62,893 nucleotides of DNA from an uncultured Kiloniellales bacterium (GTDB lineage Bacteria; Pseudomonadota; Alphaproteobacteria; Kiloniellales; JAKSDN01). A model generated the notes under the pieces. The model was given only the letters and a program-made list of their open reading frames with translations. It searched no databases and was not told where the DNA came from. Where the stretch lies: NCBI GenBank assembly GCA_947258885.1, contig CAMYKD010000019.1:1-62893 (forward strand), in the 5' to 3' direction. Below, one piece after another: positions 50,761 to 58,408 of the stretch (the first letter of the stretch is position 1; every line of letters begins with the position of its first letter). The translations under genes were made by a program, and so were the position numbers.

Positions 50761-51708
50761 TCAGCCGACCTCGGCCAGGCTGGGGGCGCCTTCGCGGCCG
50801 ATCTGCGAGATGTCGTAGGGGGTGTGCTGGTACATCTCGTTGATCCAGTTCCACAGCAGCAGGTGGGCGTAGGCGCGCCAGTAGTTGACCGGCGGGTTCT
50901 TCGGATCGTCGCCGGGGAAGTAGTTCTTCGGCAGCTGGATCTCGGCGCCCGCGTCGATATCGCGATCATACTCGTGCTTGAGCGTATCGGCGTCGTATTC
51001 CAGGTGGTTGAACATGTAGACCGCCCGGTGCGGGATATCCTCCATCAGGCAGAGGCCGGAGACCGGCGATTCGGCGAGGATGCGCAGGCCCGGCTTGTCC
51101 GGGATCTCCTCCCGGCGCACCTCGGTGTGGCGCGAGACCGGGATAGAGAACTCGTCGTTGAAGCCGATCAGCAGGCTCGACCTCAGCCCCGTCAAGCGGT
51201 GGCTGAAGATGCCGAACATCTTCTGCTCCAGCTCGTGCTTGGGCACGCCGTGGAAGTGGTGGAGCGCGGCCTGCGCGCCCCAGCAGATGTAGAAACCCCG
51301 GAAGACGTTCTCCTGCGCCCAGTCGAAGATGGCGGTCAGCTCCCGCCAGTAGTCGACCTTTTCGAAGGGCATGGTCTCGATCGGCGCGCCGGTGACGATC
51401 AGGCCGTCGAACTTCTCGTGACAGACCTCGTCCCAGGTCTTGTAGAAGTCGATCAGGTGCTTCTTGGGCGTGTTCCGGGGTCGGTAGGAGCCGGTCTGCA
51501 GCAGGGTCATCTCGACCTGCAGCGGCGTGCTGCCGATCAACCGGGCGATCTGGGCCTCGGTCCGGATCTTGTTCGGCATCAGGTTCAGGAGCGCGAGCCG
51601 GAGCGGGCGGATATCCTGACGGATCGCGTCGGACTCCTTGATGACCATGACGCCTTCCTCCTCGAGGATGCGTCGGGCGGGCAGATCGTTGGGGATCTTT
51701 ATGGGCAC
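50761..51708 (-). CDS. metA: Homoserine O-acyltransferase MetA (probably acetyltransferase)
   Basis: The 315-residue enzyme has the MetA order: MPIKIPNDLPARRILEEEGV start, LLNLMPNKIRTEAQIARLIG, VTGAPIETMPFEKVDYW, catalytic Cys in FYICWGAQAALHHF, and the His/Glu pair in FNHLEYDADTLKHEY. GTG 51708 gives the canonical MPIKIP start with GGGGAAG upstream; an ATG ten codons earlier is possible. It activates homoserine for methionine synthesis. The operon partner metY uses O-acetylhomoserine, so acetyl-CoA is the likely co-substrate. It is third in the metY-osmC-metA series. Confidence 0.9.
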   Translation of the reverse strand: MPIKIPNDLPARRILEEEGVMVIKESDAIRQDIRPLRLALLNLMPNKIRTEAQIARLIGSTPLQVEMTLLQTGSYRPRNTPKKHLIDFYKTWDEVCHEKFDGLIVTGAPIETMPFEKVDYWRELTAIFDWAQENVFRGFYICWGAQAALHHFHGVPKHELEQKMFGIFSHRLTGLRSSLLIGFNDEFSIPVSRHTEVRREEIPDKPGLRILAESPVSGLCLMEDIPHRAVYMFNHLEYDADTLKHEYDRDIDAGAEIQLPKNYFPGDDPKNPPVNYWRAYAHLLLWNWINEMYQHTPYDISQIGREGAPSLAEVG

Positions 51709-51777
51709 GTTTGGACTTCCCCGTTTGTCATCGAACAAATATAGGGCGAAGGCACCGGATTACGCTCCGAAATTGGC

Positions 51778-51816: not shown

Positions 51817-52347
51817 TTATTCCGCGGCCTGCGTTTCTGCGCGGTCCGCCTCGGCGAAGGTCAGGCTCACCGGGGTCCTGTTGCCCAGGATGTCGAGCAC
51901 CGGGCAGAAGCGGTCCACCGTGGCCTTGAGGCGGTCGAGCTCGGCCTCGCTGGCCGGGCTGTCCAGGGTCACCTCCGCCCGGATCGCCTGGAAGCCCGGA
52001 CGAACCGCCTCGTCGACCGAGAAGAAGCCGCGCAGGTCGAGATCGCCGTCGACCTTGACCGAGACCGAATCGAGCGGGATGCCCAGGCTGTCGGCGTAGA
52101 GCCTGTAGGTGATCTCCTGGCAGCTCGCCAGGGCCGCCAGCACCAGCTCGACCGGGTTGGGGCCCTGGTCGGTGCCGCCGAGCGCCTCGGGCTCGTCCAC
52201 CGTCAGGCTGAACTGGCGGGTTTGCACCTCGCTGCGCAGCCCTTCGGCCTGGCGGCTTTCCGCGGTGAAGGTGGCAAGCGCCTGGCCGGGCTCGGCGCGC
52301 AGGGCCTCCTGGGTGCCGTCGAATACGGTCTTGTAGCTCTGGGTCAT
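51817..52347 (-). CDS. OsmC/Ohr-family protein
   Basis: The 176-residue protein has the OsmC fold: NPVELVLAALASCQEITYRLYADSLG holds the first catalytic Cys in the central helix, and VDRFCPVLDILGNRTPV holds the second (C-P-V). Such proteins reduce organic peroxides with a Cys pair. It sits 31 bases downstream of metY and 108 bases upstream of metA, between two methionine biosynthesis genes, so it should share the riboswitch-controlled transcript. A link to thiol or sulfide chemistry is inferred. Confidence 0.82.
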   Translation of the reverse strand: MTQSYKTVFDGTQEALRAEPGQALATFTAESRQAEGLRSEVQTRQFSLTVDEPEALGGTDQGPNPVELVLAALASCQEITYRLYADSLGIPLDSVSVKVDGDLDLRGFFSVDEAVRPGFQAIRAEVTLDSPASEAELDRLKATVDRFCPVLDILGNRTPVSLTFAEADRAETQAAE

Positions 52348-52378
52348 GGGTCTTTCTCCTTCTGTCCGTAGGTGTTCG

Positions 52379-53692
52379 TCAGGCGGCCTGCCGGGTCGCG
52401 CCGGCGGCCTCCAGCGCCTGGTCCAGATCGGCCAGGATGTCTTCGATGTGCTCGATGCCGACCGAGAGCCGCACGTAGCCCTCGGAAACCCCCGTGGCGA
52501 GCTGCTCGTCGGGCGACAGCTGCGAGTGGGTCGTGGTCGCCGGGTGGATCGCCAGCGAGCGGGCGTCGCCGATATTCGCGACGTGGTAGAACAGCTTCAG
52601 CGCATCGATGAAGCGCCGCCCCGCCGCCTTGCCGCCCTTCAGCTCGAAGCCGACCAGGCCGCCGGCGTGGCGGCCCAAGTAGGTCTCGGCCCTTCGCTTC
52701 TGCTCGCCCTCGAAGAGGCTCGGGTGGATCACCTTGGTGACCGTCTCGTGGACAGCGAGGTAGCGGGCGACCGCCTCGGCGTTGCGGCAGTGCTCGCGGA
52801 TCCGCAAGGGCAGGGTCTCGAGGCCCTGGATGAACAGGAAGGCGTTGAAGGGGCTCAAGGCATAGCCGAGGTCGCGCTGCAGGGTGACCCGGGCCTTCAG
52901 GATGTAGGCGATCGGCCCCAAGGGCTTGGCCGCCTCGGTCCAGACCGCGCCGTGATAGCTCGGGTCCGGCTGGGTCAGGAGCGGGAAGCGCTCGGCGTGG
53001 GCCTCCCAGTCGAAGTTGCCGCCGTCGACGATCAGCCCGCCGATCGATGTGCCGTGGCCGCCGATATACTTCGTGGTGGAATAGACGACGATGTTGGCGC
53101 CGTGGTCGAGCGGCCGGCAGATGATCGGCGCCGCCGTGTTGTCGACGATCAGCGGAATGCCCAGATCGCGGCCGATCCCGGCCACCTCGGCGATCGGGAA
53201 GACGGTCAGCTTCGGGTTCGGCAGGGTCTCGGCGTAGAAGGCGCGGGTGCGCGCATCAGCCGCCCGGCGGAAGTTCTCGGGATCGGCGGGATCGACGAAG
53301 CGGACCTCGATGCCGAAGGTGTCGAAGGTGTTCGCGAAGAGGTTCCAGGTGCCGCCATAGAGGTCGGTCGAGGAGACGATGTTGTCGCCGGCCCGGGCGA
53401 TGTTCTGGATCGCGATCGCCGAGGCCGCCTGGCCGGAGCTGACCGCGAGCGCCGCCGCGCCGCCGTCGAGCGCCGTGATGCGCTCCTCGAGCACGGCGGT
53501 GGTCGGGTTCATGATCCGCGTGTAGATGTTGCCGAGCTCCTTGAGTGCGAAGAGGTTGGCCGCGTGCTCGCTGTGCTCGAACTGATAGGACGTGGTCTGA
53601 TAGATCGGCACGGCGACCGAGCCGGTGCCGTCGTCCTTGCGGTAGCCGGCGTGCAGCACGAGGGTTTCGGGGTTCTGGGTGTTCACGGGCAT
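52379..53692 (-). CDS. metY: O-acetylhomoserine aminocarboxypropyltransferase (sulfhydrylase) MetY
   Basis: The 437-residue PLP enzyme of the Cys/Met metabolism family starts at ATG 53692 behind GGAGG. ETLVLHAGYRKDDGTGSVAV and VPIYQTTSYQFEHSEHAA form the N-terminus. YTRIMNPTTAVLEERI, AVSSGQAASAIA, DNTAAPIICRPLDHGANIVVYSTTKYIGGHG (PLP lysine in STTKYIGGHG) and the C-terminal GIEHIEDILADL are characteristic of MetY rather than MetB/MetC. It makes homocysteine from O-acetylhomoserine and sulfide. It heads the operon under the tandem SAM-II leader; a 50-codon frame overlaps its first ten bases. Confidence 0.9.
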   Translation of the reverse strand: MPVNTQNPETLVLHAGYRKDDGTGSVAVPIYQTTSYQFEHSEHAANLFALKELGNIYTRIMNPTTAVLEERITALDGGAAALAVSSGQAASAIAIQNIARAGDNIVSSTDLYGGTWNLFANTFDTFGIEVRFVDPADPENFRRAADARTRAFYAETLPNPKLTVFPIAEVAGIGRDLGIPLIVDNTAAPIICRPLDHGANIVVYSTTKYIGGHGTSIGGLIVDGGNFDWEAHAERFPLLTQPDPSYHGAVWTEAAKPLGPIAYILKARVTLQRDLGYALSPFNAFLFIQGLETLPLRIREHCRNAEAVARYLAVHETVTKVIHPSLFEGEQKRRAETYLGRHAGGLVGFELKGGKAAGRRFIDALKLFYHVANIGDARSLAIHPATTTHSQLSPDEQLATGVSEGYVRLSVGIEHIEDILADLDQALEAAGATRQAA

Positions 53693-53835
53693 GTCGGATC
53701 CTCCGTCTGGTCGGTTAGTCGGGATTTGGGGCGGGCCGCGGAAAGCGGCGCGGCGGGCAGCCAGCGGTCGAGCGCGGCGCGCCAGAGCGCACCGTCGGAC
53801 CAGTCGGGGAGGGGGTTTGAAGGAACGGTCACCAT
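53683..53835 (-). CDS. Putative 50-residue leader peptide overlapping the metY start
   Basis: ATG 53835 has GGGAGAG five bases upstream, one of the better ribosome binding sites in the window. The frame reads 50 codons (MVTVPSNPLPDWSDGALWRA at the start) and stops at TGA 53683-53685, overlapping the metY ATG by ten bases in another frame. It lies between the proximal SAM-II aptamer and metY. No family is recognised, and a chance frame is possible. If real, its translation would be coupled to metY and would be the first target of aptamer 2. Confidence 0.5.
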   Translation of the reverse strand: MVTVPSNPLPDWSDGALWRAALDRWLPAAPLSAARPKSRLTDQTEDPTCP

Positions 53836-53883
53836 GTGGACTCTCCCGGCACCAGTTGCTTACAACCGCGGGGCCCACAAGAG

Positions 53884-53940
53884 TGGCGCTTTAGCTTTTG
53901 GTGACCCGGTGCAAGCTGCCCCAATCAAATCCCGGGGGTC
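53884..53940 (-). promoter_or_regulatory. SAM-II riboswitch aptamer, proximal copy (aptamer 2)
   Basis: Read on the minus strand, P1 is CCCGG (53935-53931) paired with CCGGG (53909-53905). Loop 1 starts with the conserved GATTTGA and ends AGCTTGCA. The 3' segment is CACCAAAAGCTAAAGCGCC, where AGCT can pair back to AGCT of the loop to form the pseudoknot. This is the SAM-II plan GATTTgA ... TTGC ... GCTAAAG. It is about 50 bases upstream of the leader-peptide start, with no terminator after it, so translational control is more likely. Confidence 0.82.
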
Positions 53941-53966
53941 CGTTTTCCGGCCGGACCGCGCCGAAC

Positions 53967-53997
53967 AAAAAAACCGCCGCGGCTCTTGCCGGGCGGT
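53967..53997 (-). terminator. Intrinsic terminator following the distal SAM-II aptamer
   Basis: On the minus strand ACCGCCCGGC, loop AAGA and GCCGCGGCGGT form a ten-pair stem with one bulged C, followed directly by seven T (53973-53967). The upstream GCGGT (54005-54001) can instead pair with ACCGC of the left arm (53997-53993), a competing antiterminator. This fits SAM-dependent premature termination. Confidence 0.85.
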
Positions 53998-54002
53998 CGA
54001 AC

Positions 54003-54060
54003 CGCTCGCTTTAGCCGCATTTCTAGAGCGCCCGCAAGCTAAGCTTCAAATCGGCGCTTG
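54003..54060 (-). promoter_or_regulatory. SAM-II riboswitch aptamer, distal copy (aptamer 1)
   Basis: Read on the minus strand, P1 is AGCGCC (54058-54053) pairing perfectly with GGCGCT (54032-54027). Loop 1 is GATTTGAAGCTTAGCTTGC, with the conserved GATTTGA and TTGC. The 3' segment ATGCGGCTAAAGCGAGCGG contains GCTAAAGC, which pairs with loop segment GCTTAGC with one bulged A to close the pseudoknot. All SAM-II landmarks are present. The antiterminator and terminator follow at once. Confidence 0.88.
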
Positions 54061-54105
54061 GGCCTAGGCAACACCAAAGGGGGCCCGTCTGTCAAGCGCC
54101 GATTT
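54048..54105. repeat. 13-bp perfect inverted repeat spanning the metY promoter and aptamer 1
   Basis: AAATCGGCGCTTG (54048-54060) and CAAGCGCCGATTT (54093-54105) are perfect inverted repeats. The first is the 5' half of P1 plus the conserved loop of aptamer 1. The second overlaps a consensus TTGACA (-35, minus strand, 54095-54090). If RNA begins upstream of this point, the copy could sequester aptamer 1. Confidence 0.7.
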
Positions 54106-54192
54106 CGACCCGCGGTCAACGTCGGGTGCGGGATTCCGTGCGAAAAGAGCCACGCGAACCGAAAAAAAGATGCAAAAATCGAGCGTTTATAG

Positions 54193-54198
54193 TATAAT
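54193..54198 (+). promoter_or_regulatory. Candidate -10 box (TATAAT) for the 54302 gene
   Basis: A consensus TATAAT lies in an AT-rich stretch (54160-54225) about 100 bases upstream of ATG 54302. No good -35 hexamer is at 17 bases (ATGCAA, three matches), so the promoter may be of the extended or activator-dependent type. Confidence 0.45.
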
Positions 54199-54301
54199 AA
54201 TCATAGTAATCTTAAGGGCTTTCGCCGATGTACGGCGAGGTTATGCCTGGGATCTACTACAAGGGGGTATGGGCTCGAAGATCAGGTAGAGGGGCTAGGA
54301 A

Positions 54302-54874
54302 ATGGAAACCGGTTTGATTCTGGCTGGGGGGCTGGTAATCGTGATCGGGCTTGTTGCGGCGGGCGCCTTCGGGGGAACCGGCGTCCGCAGGGGCGAGGCC
54401 CGGCAGGATACGAATGTCGCGCGCGGATCCGCAGGGGTCGGCAAGCCGGCATCGGGATTTTCGGATGCCGTGGGCTCCGCCGAGCGGCTGAGGTCGGCCG
54501 CCCGGGCGGCCTACGAGATGGGCTGGGACAAGGCCGAGTTGGGGGGCAAGGCGCTCGGGAAGTGCCACGAGACGGCGCTGGTTAACGTGCTCTACGAGCG
54601 CTGGCGGGTCGAGCCCAGCGCGCCGCCCGCCAACGAGGTCACGTTTCAGGCTTTCGTGCTGGAATCGCTGCCGTTCAACGTGCTGCCGATCCGCCAGGGG
54701 CGGACCGCCATGGTCGAGTACATGGTCTGGCGCGAGTTTCCCGAGGACGCCGATACCGCGGTGATCGGACCCGCCGTCCAGCAGGCCGTGGGCCGCCTGC
54801 AGACGGACAGCGGCCCCGACGTGGCGGCGCGCCTCAAATCGACCCCCATGCCCTGGACCGAGTTCATCGCTTAG
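54302..54874 (+). CDS. Hypothetical membrane-anchored protein
   Basis: The 190-residue protein opens with a hydrophobic anchor (METGLILAGGLVIVIGLVAAGAF), then a Gly/Arg linker and a soluble domain from about 55 with ARAAYEMGWDKAELGGKALGKCHETAL, FQAFVLESLPFNVLPIRQGR and YMVWREFPEDADTAVIGPAV. No family is recognised. It is divergent from the methionine operon and upstream of icmF on the same strand, but a separate promoter precedes icmF. Confidence 0.6.
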   Translation: METGLILAGGLVIVIGLVAAGAFGGTGVRRGEARQDTNVARGSAGVGKPASGFSDAVGSAERLRSAARAAYEMGWDKAELGGKALGKCHETALVNVLYERWRVEPSAPPANEVTFQAFVLESLPFNVLPIRQGRTAMVEYMVWREFPEDADTAVIGPAVQQAVGRLQTDSGPDVAARLKSTPMPWTEFIA

Positions 54875-55141: not shown

Positions 55142-58100
55142 GTGCCGGACGAAGGAATCCGTAAGCCGATACCGGCCAGGAAGAAATCCTACAAGGCGAA
55201 GCACAAGGTCCGCTTCGTTACGGCCACCAGCCTGTTCGACGGCCACGACGCCTCGATCAACATCTTCCGCCGCATCCTGCAGGGCTCGGGCGCCGAGGTC
55301 ATCCACCTGGGCCACAACCGCTCGGTCGAGGAGATCGTCACCGCGGCGCTCCAGGAGGACGTGCAGGGCATCGCCGTCAGCTCCTACCAGGGCGGCCACG
55401 TCGAGTTCTTCAAGTACATGATCGACCTGCTGCGCGAGCGCGGCGGCGCCCACGTCAAGGTCTTCGGCGGCGGCGGCGGGGTCATCGTGCGCGAGGAGAT
55501 CCAGGAACTGCACGACTACGGCGTGGCCCGGATCTACGCGCCCGAGGACGGCCAGCAGATGGGCCTGCAGGGCATGATCGACGACATGCTGGCGCAGGCC
55601 GATTTCGACCTGAACGCGGAGCCGCCGGCCTCGCTCGACGGGCTGGCCGGCGACGGGCGGGTCCTGGCGCGGGTCGTCACGGCCCTGGAAAGCGGCGTTC
55701 TGGATCCCGGCCTGACGGCGGAGCTGAAGAAGGTGGCGGAGAAAGCGGCCGCGGTTCCTGTGCTCGGCATCACCGGCACCGGCGGCGCCGGCAAGTCCTC
55801 GGTAACCGACGAGCTGGTGCGCCGTTTCCGCCTGGACGACCCCGAGCGGCGCATCGCGCTGATCGCCATCGACCCCTCGAAGCGCAAGAGCGGCGGCGCG
55901 CTCCTGGGCGACCGCATCCGCATGAACGCGATCGACGGCCCGCAGGTCTACATGCGCTCGCTCGCCACACGCGGCTCCGACAGCGAGACCCCGGCCTGCC
56001 TGCCCGACATCGTCGTGGCCTGCAAGGCGGCCGGCTTCGGCCTGGTCATCGTCGAGACTCCCGGGATCGGCCAGGGCGACGCCGGGATCGTGCCCCACGT
56101 CGATTGCTCGCTCTACGTCATGACGCCGGAGTTCGGTGCCGCCAGCCAGCTCGAGAAGATCGACATGCTGGACTTCGCCGACCTCGTCGCGATCAACAAG
56201 TTCGACCGGCGGGGCGCCCGGGACGCGCTGCGCGACGTGCGCAAGCAGGTCCAGCGCGGCCGCGAGGCCTTTTCGCAGTCGCCCGAGGACATGCCGGTCT
56301 ACGGCACGATCGCCGCGCACTTCAACGACGACGGGGTGACCGCGCTCTACCACGGCCTTCTGAGCGCCCTGAACGCGCGCGGCCTGGGTACCTGGTCGAG
56401 CGCCCTGCCGCCGGTCGAGGGCGTCGCGTCCTCGGCGCGCACGGCCATGGTGCCGGCCGGCCGGGAGCGCTATCTGGCCGAGGTCGCCGAGACGGTGCGC
56501 GCCTACCACGGTTTCGTGCGCGAACAGGCGGCGGTCGCCCGCGAGCGCCAGCAGCTCGGCGAGGCTAGGCGCATGCTCGCGGAGGCCGGTCAGGACGGCG
56601 CGGCGCTGGACCCCCTGGTCGCCGCGCGCGAGGAGGCGCTGGATCCGCGCTGCCGTAAGCTCTTGGACATCTGGCCCAAGGTGAAGGAGAGCTATTCCGG
56701 CGAGGAGTACGTGGTCAGGATCCGCGACCGGGAGGTGCGCACCAAGCTCACGGCGACGTCGCTCTCCGGCACGAAGATCCCCAAGGTCGCGCTGCCCAGG
56801 TTCGAGGACCACGGCGACATCCTGACCTGGCTGCTCGAGGAGAACCTGCCCGGCAGCTTCCCCTATACCGGCGGCATCTTCGCCTTCAAGCGCGAGAGCG
56901 AGGACCCGACGCGCATGTTCGCCGGCGAGGGCGACGCGTTCCGCACCAACGAGCGCTTCAAGTACCTGTCGCGCGACAGCGAGGCCAAGCGCCTCTCGAC
57001 CGCCTTCGACTCGGTGACGCTCTACGGCTTCGACCCGGACGAGCGGCCGGACATCTACGGCAAGGTCGGCACATCCGGCGTCTCGATCGCCACGCTCGAC
57101 GACATGAAGGCGCTTTACGACGGCTTCGACCTGTGCCACCCGATGACCTCTGTCTCGATGACCATCAACGGCCCGGCGCCGACCATCCTGGCGATGTACT
57201 TCAACACCGCGATCGACCAGCAGCTCGCGCGTTTCGAGGCCGAGAACGGCCGCCCGCCGACCGACGAGGAGATCGACAAGATCGGCGCCTGGGCGCTCGA
57301 GACCGCGCGCGGCACGGTCCAGGCCGACATCCTCAAGGAAGACCAGGGCCAGAACACCTGCATCTTCTCGATCGAGTTCGCGCTCAGGATGATGGCGGAT
57401 ATCCAGGAGTACTTCGTCCACCACCGCGTCCGAAACTTCTACTCGGTCTCGATCTCCGGCTACCACATCGCCGAGGCCGGGGCGAACCCGATCTCGCAGC
57501 TCGCCTTCACCCTGGCCAACGGCTTCACCTACGTCGAGGCCTACCTGGCGCGCGGCATGGAGATCGACGACTTCGCGGCCAACCTGTCGTTCTTCTTCTC
57601 CAACGGCATGGACCCGGAGTATTCCGTGATCGGGCGCGTGGCGCGGCGCATCTGGGCGACGGCCCTGCGCGACAAGTACGGCGCCAACGAGCGCAGCCAG
57701 AAGCTCAAGTACCACATCCAGACCTCGGGCCGCTCGCTGCACGCCCAGGAGATGGACTTCAACGACATCCGCACGACCTTGCAGGCCCTGATCGCCGTCT
57801 ACGACAACTGCAATAGCCTGCATACCAACGCCCACGACGAGGCCTACACCACGCCGACCGCCGAGTCGGTTCGGCGCGCCATGGCGATCCAGATGATCAT
57901 CAACAAGGAGTGGGGCCTGGCCGGGAACGAGAACCCGGGCCAGGGCGCCTTCATCATCGAGGAGCTGACCGACCTGGTCGAGGAGGCCGTGCTCCAGGAG
58001 TTCGAGCGCATCTCCGAGCGCGGCGGCGTGTTGGGCGCCATGGAGACCGGCTACCAGCGCGGCAAGATCCAGGACGAGTCCCTGCATTACGAGAGCCTCA

Positions 58101-58408
58101 AGCACGACGGCGCGCTGCCGATCGTCGGCGTCAACACCTTCCTCGACCCCGAGGCCGCCAAGGACCCGGGGCCGATCGAGCTGAGGCGCTCGACGGAGGA
58201 GGAAAAGCAAGGCCAGATCACCCGCCTGCGCGACTTCCAGGCGGGCCACGCCGCGGAGGCGCCGGTCCTGCTCGCGCGCCTTAAAGAGGCGGCGACAAGC
58301 GGCGGCAACGTCTTCGCCGTGCTGATGGAGGCGGTGCGCTGCTGCTCGCTCGGCCAGATCACCGACGCGCTCTTCGAGGTCGGCGGCCAATACCGCCGCA
58401 ACATGTAA
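55142..58408 (+). CDS. icmF: Fused isobutyryl-CoA mutase IcmF (B12-dependent mutase with MeaB-type GTPase)
   Basis: A 1088-residue fusion. The N-terminal B12-binding domain has [12 protein letters not shown] with the lower-axial His35, and [12 protein letters not shown]. The central G-protein chaperone has Walker [13 protein letters not shown] near 209, SATRG-type [24 protein letters not shown] and [12 protein letters not shown]. From about 560 the acyl-CoA mutase TIM barrel follows, with [54 protein letters not shown] and [11 protein letters not shown]. It interconverts isobutyryl-CoA and n-butyryl-CoA or related branched acyl-CoAs with adenosylcobalamin, and repairs its own cofactor. GTG 55142 is the start. 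A palindromic operator lies upstream. Confidence 0.93.

Follow-up and report, generated by a model that had tools for sequence, protein, structure and literature searches.

Why does a single methionine operon carry two aptamers that look alike in its leader, and do both act at the same level of gene expression? In the window, i.e., the whole stretch of 62,893 nucleotides from an uncultured Kiloniellales bacterium analyzed here, two SAM-II-type aptamers lie ahead of metY-osmC-metA on the minus strand, with their GATTTG motifs 121 nt apart. We consider it likely that one transcript meets two SAM-II-type OFF switches in turn, of which the distal one would act on transcription and the proximal one on translation; we infer the ligand, the sign of the proximal switch, and its coupling to metY. 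All features described below are on the minus strand unless stated otherwise.

Two SAM-II-type aptamers precede metY-osmC-metA

The first gene, metY (52379-53692), encodes an O-acetylhomoserine aminocarboxypropyltransferase (TIGR01326, 607.9 bits; cut-off 495.1); its start was picked by homology, and the frame stays open further upstream. An OsmC-like gene (51817-52347; NF041052, E 2.2e-23, 82.8 bits, below the cut-off of 95) and a metA-like gene for a homoserine O-acetyl/succinyltransferase (50761-51738; NF047918, 443.9 bits, below the cut-off of 460.5) follow. The plus strand carries icmF, which encodes a fused isobutyryl-CoA mutase/GTPase (55142-58408; NF045497, 1922 bits). A 573-aa plus-strand open reading frame (52346-54067) over the same DNA as metY and its leader was regarded as mechanical.

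Using cmscan on 53600-54400, we obtained two minus-strand matches to RF00521, one for the distal aptamer at 54067-53990 (26.0 bits, E 0.0012) and one for the proximal aptamer at 53945-53871 (18.7 bits, E 0.12). The first-pass annotation had described the SAM-II pattern in both aptamers on the metY strand and had expected two separate, high-scoring Infernal matches. The pattern, its coordinates, and the two separate matches were borne out; however, the scores are not high by Rfam's rule because both are below the RF00521 gathering score of 36 bits, and a scan of the whole window at gathering threshold reported only one tRNA and neither aptamer. Our own models, the alignments of which include the window copies, score 84.3 bits for the distal aptamer (R1) and 64.3 bits for the proximal aptamer (R2). 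Based on the RF00521 alignment, the P1 stem, the P2 pseudoknot, and the GAUUU/UUGC/GCUAAA core are present in both elements; P1, P2, and the outer helix of the distal element covary, and the canonical outer helix of the proximal element is short.

Exact matches to the pattern GATTTGA-AGCTTGC-GCTAAAGCG occur at two positions in the window (53931-53887 and 54052-54007) and nowhere in 100 shuffles. A looser motif has three matches in the 4.9-Mb genome, i.e., both window aptamers and one site on contig C53, and none when the genome is read backwards. These counts and, above all, the recurrence of the motif in relatives exclude a chance origin. One other match in the genome, on contig C154 (15.8 bits), was regarded as chance and is absent from the genome motif scan. 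In 53600-54400, the SAM-II long loop family (RF01726) reached 14.6 bits compared with a gathering score of 44 bits (E 8.6), and SAM-V was rejected as the class of the second aptamer, with no Rfam SAM-V match at E values up to 10. The leader places two aptamers ahead of one operon in the manner of a tandem riboswitch, and, judged from sequence, SAM is the presumed ligand common to both.

The distal aptamer is followed by a terminator and an overlapping antiterminator

A −35-like element, TTGACA (54090-54095), which we suggest is part of a promoter, is located just upstream of the distal aptamer. Of 56 distal-type sites, many of which are related, 54 have TTGAC at most 75 nt upstream of GATTTG, nearly always at −40 to −46; among 73 proximal-type sites, 16 have it in the same interval, and most of these are between −57 and −75. 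The spacing at the distal sites would fit a promoter with a transcript beginning near P1, and because the distance is nearly fixed at distal and not at proximal sites, one transcript probably runs through both aptamers. A simple promoter and terminator scan reported neither at this leader.

The distal aptamer (53996-54060) consists of P1 (AGCGCC at 54058-54053 with GGCGCT), GATTTGA (54052-54046), AGCTTGC, GCTAAAGC, and the outer helix GCTT/GAGC. It is followed by an intrinsic terminator (53967-53997) with a stem at 53997-53973, in which ACCGCCCGGC pairs with GCCGCGGCGGT, and a T-run at 53973-53967. The terminator fold (−21.8 kcal/mol) is more stable than shuffles (z −2.18), 4 of 10 stem pairs have double changes, and 91.2% of the cells are paired. 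The antiterminator (53979-54018), in which GCGGCT (54018-54013) pairs with AGCCGC (53984-53979) and encloses GCGG/CCGC, has bases in common with both the distal aptamer strand and the terminator: GCGGCU contains the GCU of the conserved GCUAAAG and can pair with the AGCCGC of the terminator. Its outer helix is paired in 91.4% of the cells, with GC-to-AU changes; taken together with the inner hairpin, pairing is hardly above that of shuffles (81.5% versus 80.3%, with 46 of 500 as high). Based on computed energies, the antiterminator (−21.9 kcal/mol) and the terminator with the aptamer strand free (−21.8 kcal/mol) are equal, as a switch requires.

Compensatory covariation in relatives had been set beforehand as a test of this structure. 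In 33 distal sequences, P1, P2, and the terminator have 27 double-change cells versus 11.8 ± 2.7 in shuffles, and 91.8% of the cells pair versus 36-47% when slid. This alignment (A4) comprises 38 listed sequences minus six with another layout, plus the window copy; the source list already lacked near-identical sequences, two that had no T-run, and any of at least 115 nt. The A4 counts for the outer P2 helix are lowered because MAFFT shifts one family (f4) by one column.

The terminator and overlapping antiterminator that the first-pass annotation had placed after the distal aptamer only are both present in the sequence, the terminator also by folding, and no U-run hairpin was seen after the proximal aptamer. 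The distal aptamer most likely acts on transcription via this terminator. A single transcript would start just upstream of the distal aptamer and meet both switches in turn. Without SAM, GCGGCU would pair with AGCCGC to form the antiterminator; with SAM, this strand would be locked in the aptamer pseudoknot, allowing the terminator to form and transcription to stop near 53967.

The proximal aptamer has an added hairpin and a loop strand with two possible partners

The proximal aptamer (53885-53936) consists of P1 (CCCGG at 53936-53932 with CCGGG at 53909-53905), GATTTGA (53931-53925), the loop strand GGGGC (53922-53918), AGCTTGC, GCTAAAGC, and the canonical outer helix GGC/GCC. Directly 5' of P1, a hairpin referred to as P0 (GGTCC/GGACC, 53937-53957) was noticed by eye, as were P0-like hairpins with other letters ahead of many proximal-type aptamers. 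While the first-pass annotation had recognized the aptamers, the terminator, and the antiterminator, it missed a second hairpin, P3, and the exchange of partners by the loop strand. P3 (CCAC tctt GTGG, 53875-53886) is located after GCUAAAGC, and GCCCC or a related sequence comes next. The 5' arm of P3 overlaps the canonical outer helix, and the 3' arm overlaps the anti-RBS helix described below. P3 reads CCAC..GUGG in the window and CCACGG..CCGUGG in many other sequences, with equivalent hairpins of other letters in relatives, and is ~8 bp in many relatives; the P3 column is not clean because the hairpin finder often chose a helix of the start region instead.

The loop strand is complementary to two places, of which one is the canonical site at the base of P3 and the other the stretch directly after P3, where GCCCC (53870-53874) can pair with GGGGC (53922-53918) as an alternative pseudoknot. 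We compared the two pairings in 69 proximal sequences (74 minus near-identical ones, with an ungapped identity >0.80, and ones with a short downstream part); because the 69 are still related, tests with one sequence per family were used in addition. The canonical partner GGC/GCC is present in 47 of the 69 sequences, with U-A and G-U replacements in others; for this pairing, p was 0.0006 over all sequences, and the median with one per family was 0.07 (range 0.003 to 0.33). For the loop strand and the stretch past P3, the mean score was 15.06 versus 13.73 (sd 0.24), with none of 5000 permutations as high, and one sequence per family (17 families) gave a median p of 0.004 (range 0 to 0.06). The loop strand and its partner covary as GAGGATC/GATCCTC in two loci (L115 and L123) and as GGAGC/GCTCC in a third (L113). 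Two metY leaders (L154 and L158, the same sites as L115 and L123) have a larger domain in place of P3 and retain the GAGGATC/GATCCTC pairing.

Among 48 new distinct proximal-type sequences, which are 60 fetched class sites minus motif-less ones and duplicates, 46 have a stem of at least 5 bp at the place of P3 versus 24.2 ± 3.2 when shuffled, a test also passed by 53 of 57 distal-type aptamers, which have antiterminator/terminator hairpins. Hairpin and partner together are present in 36 of the 48; permuting the loops gave 24.6 ± 2.9, and none of 300 permutations reached 36. This test is not specific either, as 32 of the 57 distal-type aptamers pass it too. Our alignments A1, A2, and A3 took 42 of 50, 22 of 28, and 20 of 22 aptamers, respectively; the invariant core of the proximal alignment counts little because the sequences were chosen by a motif scan for that core. 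In other families of the class (L266-L269, L275, L288-L290, L298, L300-L302, L319, L320, and others), the core is followed by a CCACGA..TCGTGG-type hairpin, which is present even where no loop partner was detected; the loop strand of these elements is quite different. In L183 (minus strand), the GCTAAA segment of one aptamer, the first copy, seems to be duplicated.

The start region and the sign of the proximal switch

Past the proximal aptamer, the earliest start codon to have a ribosome-site-like sequence belongs to a 50-codon frame (53683-53835), which starts 143 nt upstream of metY and whose TGA overlaps the metY start. The predicted anti-RBS helix (53830-53885) pairs TGTGGGC (53879-53873) with GTCCACA (53841-53835), CCCG (53872-53869) with CGGG (53848-53845), and 53885-53882 with 53833-53830; in this way, it occupies the CGGG of the Shine-Dalgarno-like CGGGAG plus two bases, A and G, of the ATG at 53835-53833. 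The helix is the minimum free energy fold of the RNA from GCUAAA on (53895-53805; −26.9 kcal/mol), but its stability does not exceed that of shuffles (z −0.11). The same holds for longer leader folds, unlike the terminator fold. Using RNAduplex, the window (L002) scored −20.6 versus a median of −16.1 with the downstream regions of other genomes. Over the 69 sequences, 1 of 5000 permutations paired the 3' arm of P3 and the following bases with the start region equally well; with one sequence per family, p was ~0.06 on average and up to 0.25. For the window folds, we calculated −21.7 for OFF with the aptamer strand free and −15.0 for ON, plus about −10 for the extra pseudoknot; with this last term an estimate, the modeled ON and OFF folds would be near balance.

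Based on this anatomy, the proximal aptamer is probably a translational OFF switch, the sign of which we infer from sequence features. Without SAM, P3 would form, GGGGC would pair with GCCCC past P3, and the anti-RBS sequence would be hidden, leaving the start open. With SAM, the loop strand would switch to its canonical partner, located at the base of P3, and this hairpin would open; the freed 3' arm of P3, together with CCCC, would then close over the ribosome site. A canonical outer helix of 2-3 bp fits a translational switch, as in metX (accessible text of PMC6061858). Because the ribosome site belongs to the frame that overlaps the metY start, we propose that metY itself is controlled by translational coupling. 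The split control of metY suggested by the first-pass annotation, with one aptamer acting on transcription and the other on translation, is still the best reading of the anatomy; however, the start nearest to the proximal aptamer is that of the 50-codon frame and not that of metY. In three genomes of the genus, this frame is identical in length and position, and the synonymous/nonsynonymous differences are 1/9 (L005/L006), 0/8, and 1/7 in the pairs compared. A conserved protein was rejected, as the substitutions reveal no protein-level constraint, and because they favor no synonymous sites, we treat the frame as a possible coupling device rather than a conserved peptide.

A weakness of the OFF assignment is that the better-supported loop pairing is the one assigned to the SAM-free state. 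Moreover, with a P3 of ~8 bp in many relatives, a 3-bp canonical helix would not alone open P3. If, instead, the pseudoknot between loop strand and GCCCC, with P3 as a hairpin inserted in P2, were the SAM-bound fold, the proximal switch would be ON and oppose the distal one. The strong covariation of the past-P3 pairing, the strongest that we found and inclusive of the L115, L123, and L113 variants, and the wide occurrence of P3-type hairpins argue in this direction. However, the canonical partner is kept as well, with its U-A and G-U replacements; the translational SAM-V and SAM-II switches in the accessible texts of PMC6061858 and PMC9373788 are OFF; and an ON switch would have little purpose for methionine genes that SAM already turns off through the distal terminator. 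Because it would counteract that terminator on the same genes, we regard an ON switch as unlikely.

Somewhat less probable still is that the translational OFF switch proposed here acts mainly via transcription, in that SAM would block translation of the upstream frame and expose the leader to Rho, with the result that both aptamers terminate. The target in the window is indeed a short frame that starts 143 nt ahead of metY, and inspection by eye revealed short frames behind the proximal-type aptamers of L138-L141 and L172-L175 as well, of which L138 and L172 precede metN. Against this idea, the first good start in metY loci of three families (f2, f5, and f7) is, by eye, metY or osmC itself; some f4 loci have very short frames. 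The short frames of L172-L175 begin with a similar M-x-x-LFLLP peptide, as noticed by eye.

Relation to known SAM-II riboswitches

The first-pass annotation suggested that a SAM-II/SAM-II tandem with split mechanisms might be new. This is not the case: The accessible text of PMC9481103 (2022) already describes 44 tandem SAM-II riboswitches, in some of which the first aptamer has a terminator and the second acts on the ribosome site; in the literature searched, we found no other report of such tandems. Similar to those, the leader described here has two SAM-II aptamers, the first with a terminator, and ribosome-site control by the second is the arrangement in some of them. In contrast to what that text describes, the proximal type has an added hairpin and a partner swap; some of the present leaders may be among the 44. 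Neither the hairpin nor the swap was found described in the available texts of the literature searched. A study of contiguous riboswitches (PMC12452182) pools the SAM classes in its accessible part. Thus far, a tandem SAM-II with a terminator followed by ribosome-site control is already known, while the proximal type looks new.

The SAM-II/SAM-V tandem of marine bacteria, as described in the accessible text of PMC9481103 (cf. PMC11508383), similarly combines a transcription stop first with translational control second in response to the same ligand, as is presumed here; in contrast to that tandem, the second aptamer here scores as SAM-II and has no SAM-V match. According to the part of PMC6061858 available, the SAM-II outer helix is 5 bp in 60% of members and 2 bp in the translational metX, and P3 is absent in SAM-II. 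The proximal aptamer resembles the translational SAM-II switches of metX (PMC6061858) and Sinorhizobium meliloti metA (PMC9373788), as far as described in these texts, in its short outer P2 helix and in the proposed OFF logic on translation, but differs from SAM-II as portrayed in PMC6061858 in having a P3. Also, in S. meliloti metA, the Shine-Dalgarno sequence is in the pseudoknot strand (PMC9373788, accessible text), whereas here, we propose that a hairpin arm, once released, closes the ribosome site from a distance. The text of PMC4239095 (2014), in the part available, gives metY as the core target of SAM_alpha, a target in common with the window, and places SAM_alpha in Rhizobiales and Rhodobacterales only; its table has no SAM_alpha in nine Rhodospirillales genomes.

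Distribution in the order and in the class

The same architecture, which the first-pass annotation had suggested looking for in related genomes, is common: Of the 61 genomes of the order, 31 have a window-type tandem, with 33 such sites in total. The distal model matched in 53 and the proximal model in 38 of these 61 genomes. In the class sample, the distal model matched in 98 and the proximal model in 76 of 387 genomes (E up to 1e-5), where each model can match the other aptamer type weakly; the tandem is present in at least 23 of the 387, three of them from the window's order, based on rows chosen by eye. Both searches used stricter filters, by which weak matches are lost. Based on the motif scan, the best 30 metY loci by score from 58 genomes, including that of the window, have both aptamers in 20 cases, only the distal one in 8, and only the proximal one in 2. 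Among 80 metY loci of named genome records, also judged by motif scan, 8 have the tandem, 7 have only the distal aptamer, 64 have none, and 1 match (L217) was judged false; tandem holders include Aquibaculum arenosum (L207) and a Kiloniellaceae MAG (L190).

At the Rfam cut-off, 4 of 19 distal-type elements pass (20 scanned metY loci), and the homologous distal element therefore counts as an RF00521 member elsewhere. For the proximal type, 3 of 94 scanned elements (L172, L280, and L303) pass, i.e., none of 14 in metY loci, 1 of 20 in further loci, and 2 of 60 in class sites. These 60 further sites, which are weaker class matches of the proximal model, include 53 with the motif, of which 38 also have the hairpin and a loop-strand partner; the others are 7 without the motif and 15 that fail the hairpin-plus-partner test. 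That the proximal element is decayed or non-binding, leaving regulation to the distal aptamer alone, would suit its low Rfam score of 18.7 bits and the 8 distal-only loci among the best 30 but is highly improbable given the covarying loop-strand pairing, the proximal-type aptamers that stand alone ahead of other sulfur genes, and the three that pass the Rfam cut-off.

Tentatively, and stopping short of calling it probable, we suggest that the proximal element represents a widespread, largely unannotated alphaproteobacterial SAM-II subtype, in which one pseudoknot strand has two partners flanking an added hairpin and which would act at a distance to switch how genes for methionine, cysteine, and siroheme, and in some cases a short upstream frame, are translated; combined with a terminating SAM-II aptamer, it would provide two-level SAM control. 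If so, SAM control in Rhodospirillales-like bacteria would be much wider than indicated by Rfam-based annotation (distal-model matches in 53 of 61 genomes of the order versus none of 9 Rhodospirillales genomes in the table of PMC4239095, as available). In addition, the expression platform of a translational SAM-II switch would become directly testable, as nature offers many variants of the two mutually exclusive pseudoknots that share one loop strand.

Genes downstream of these aptamers in other loci

We compared eight N-terminal stretches encoded after proximal-type aptamers with NCBIfam. By best match, seven derive from sulfur or methionine genes, i.e., siroheme synthase CysG (L136 and L180), MetN (L138 and L172), MetX (L147), O-succinylhomoserine sulfhydrylase encoded by metZ (L157), and a sulfate-binding protein (L170); the eighth (L140), which we read as MetQ, had no NCBIfam match. 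Most stretches score below the curated cut-offs because they are fragments and the cut-offs are meant for whole proteins. By reading alone, further genes are siroheme-synthase-like (L126, L137, L160, L177, and L183), metZ-like (L162), or metY-like (L151-L154 and L158). Sulfur genes behind proximal-type aptamers are as expected of a SAM switch. In several loci (L126, L136, L160, L177, L180, and L183), the proximal-type aptamer is ahead of a siroheme-synthase-like gene, and some of these aptamers are in turn behind a distal-type aptamer.

The genome of the window contains a second distal-type aptamer with a terminator on contig C53 (3926-3990; L001/L165), for which no proximal partner was found. 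It precedes a frame that we read as rhodanese-like, with no NCBIfam match, and a metZ-like gene, the best match of which is O-succinylhomoserine sulfhydrylase (548.6 bits).
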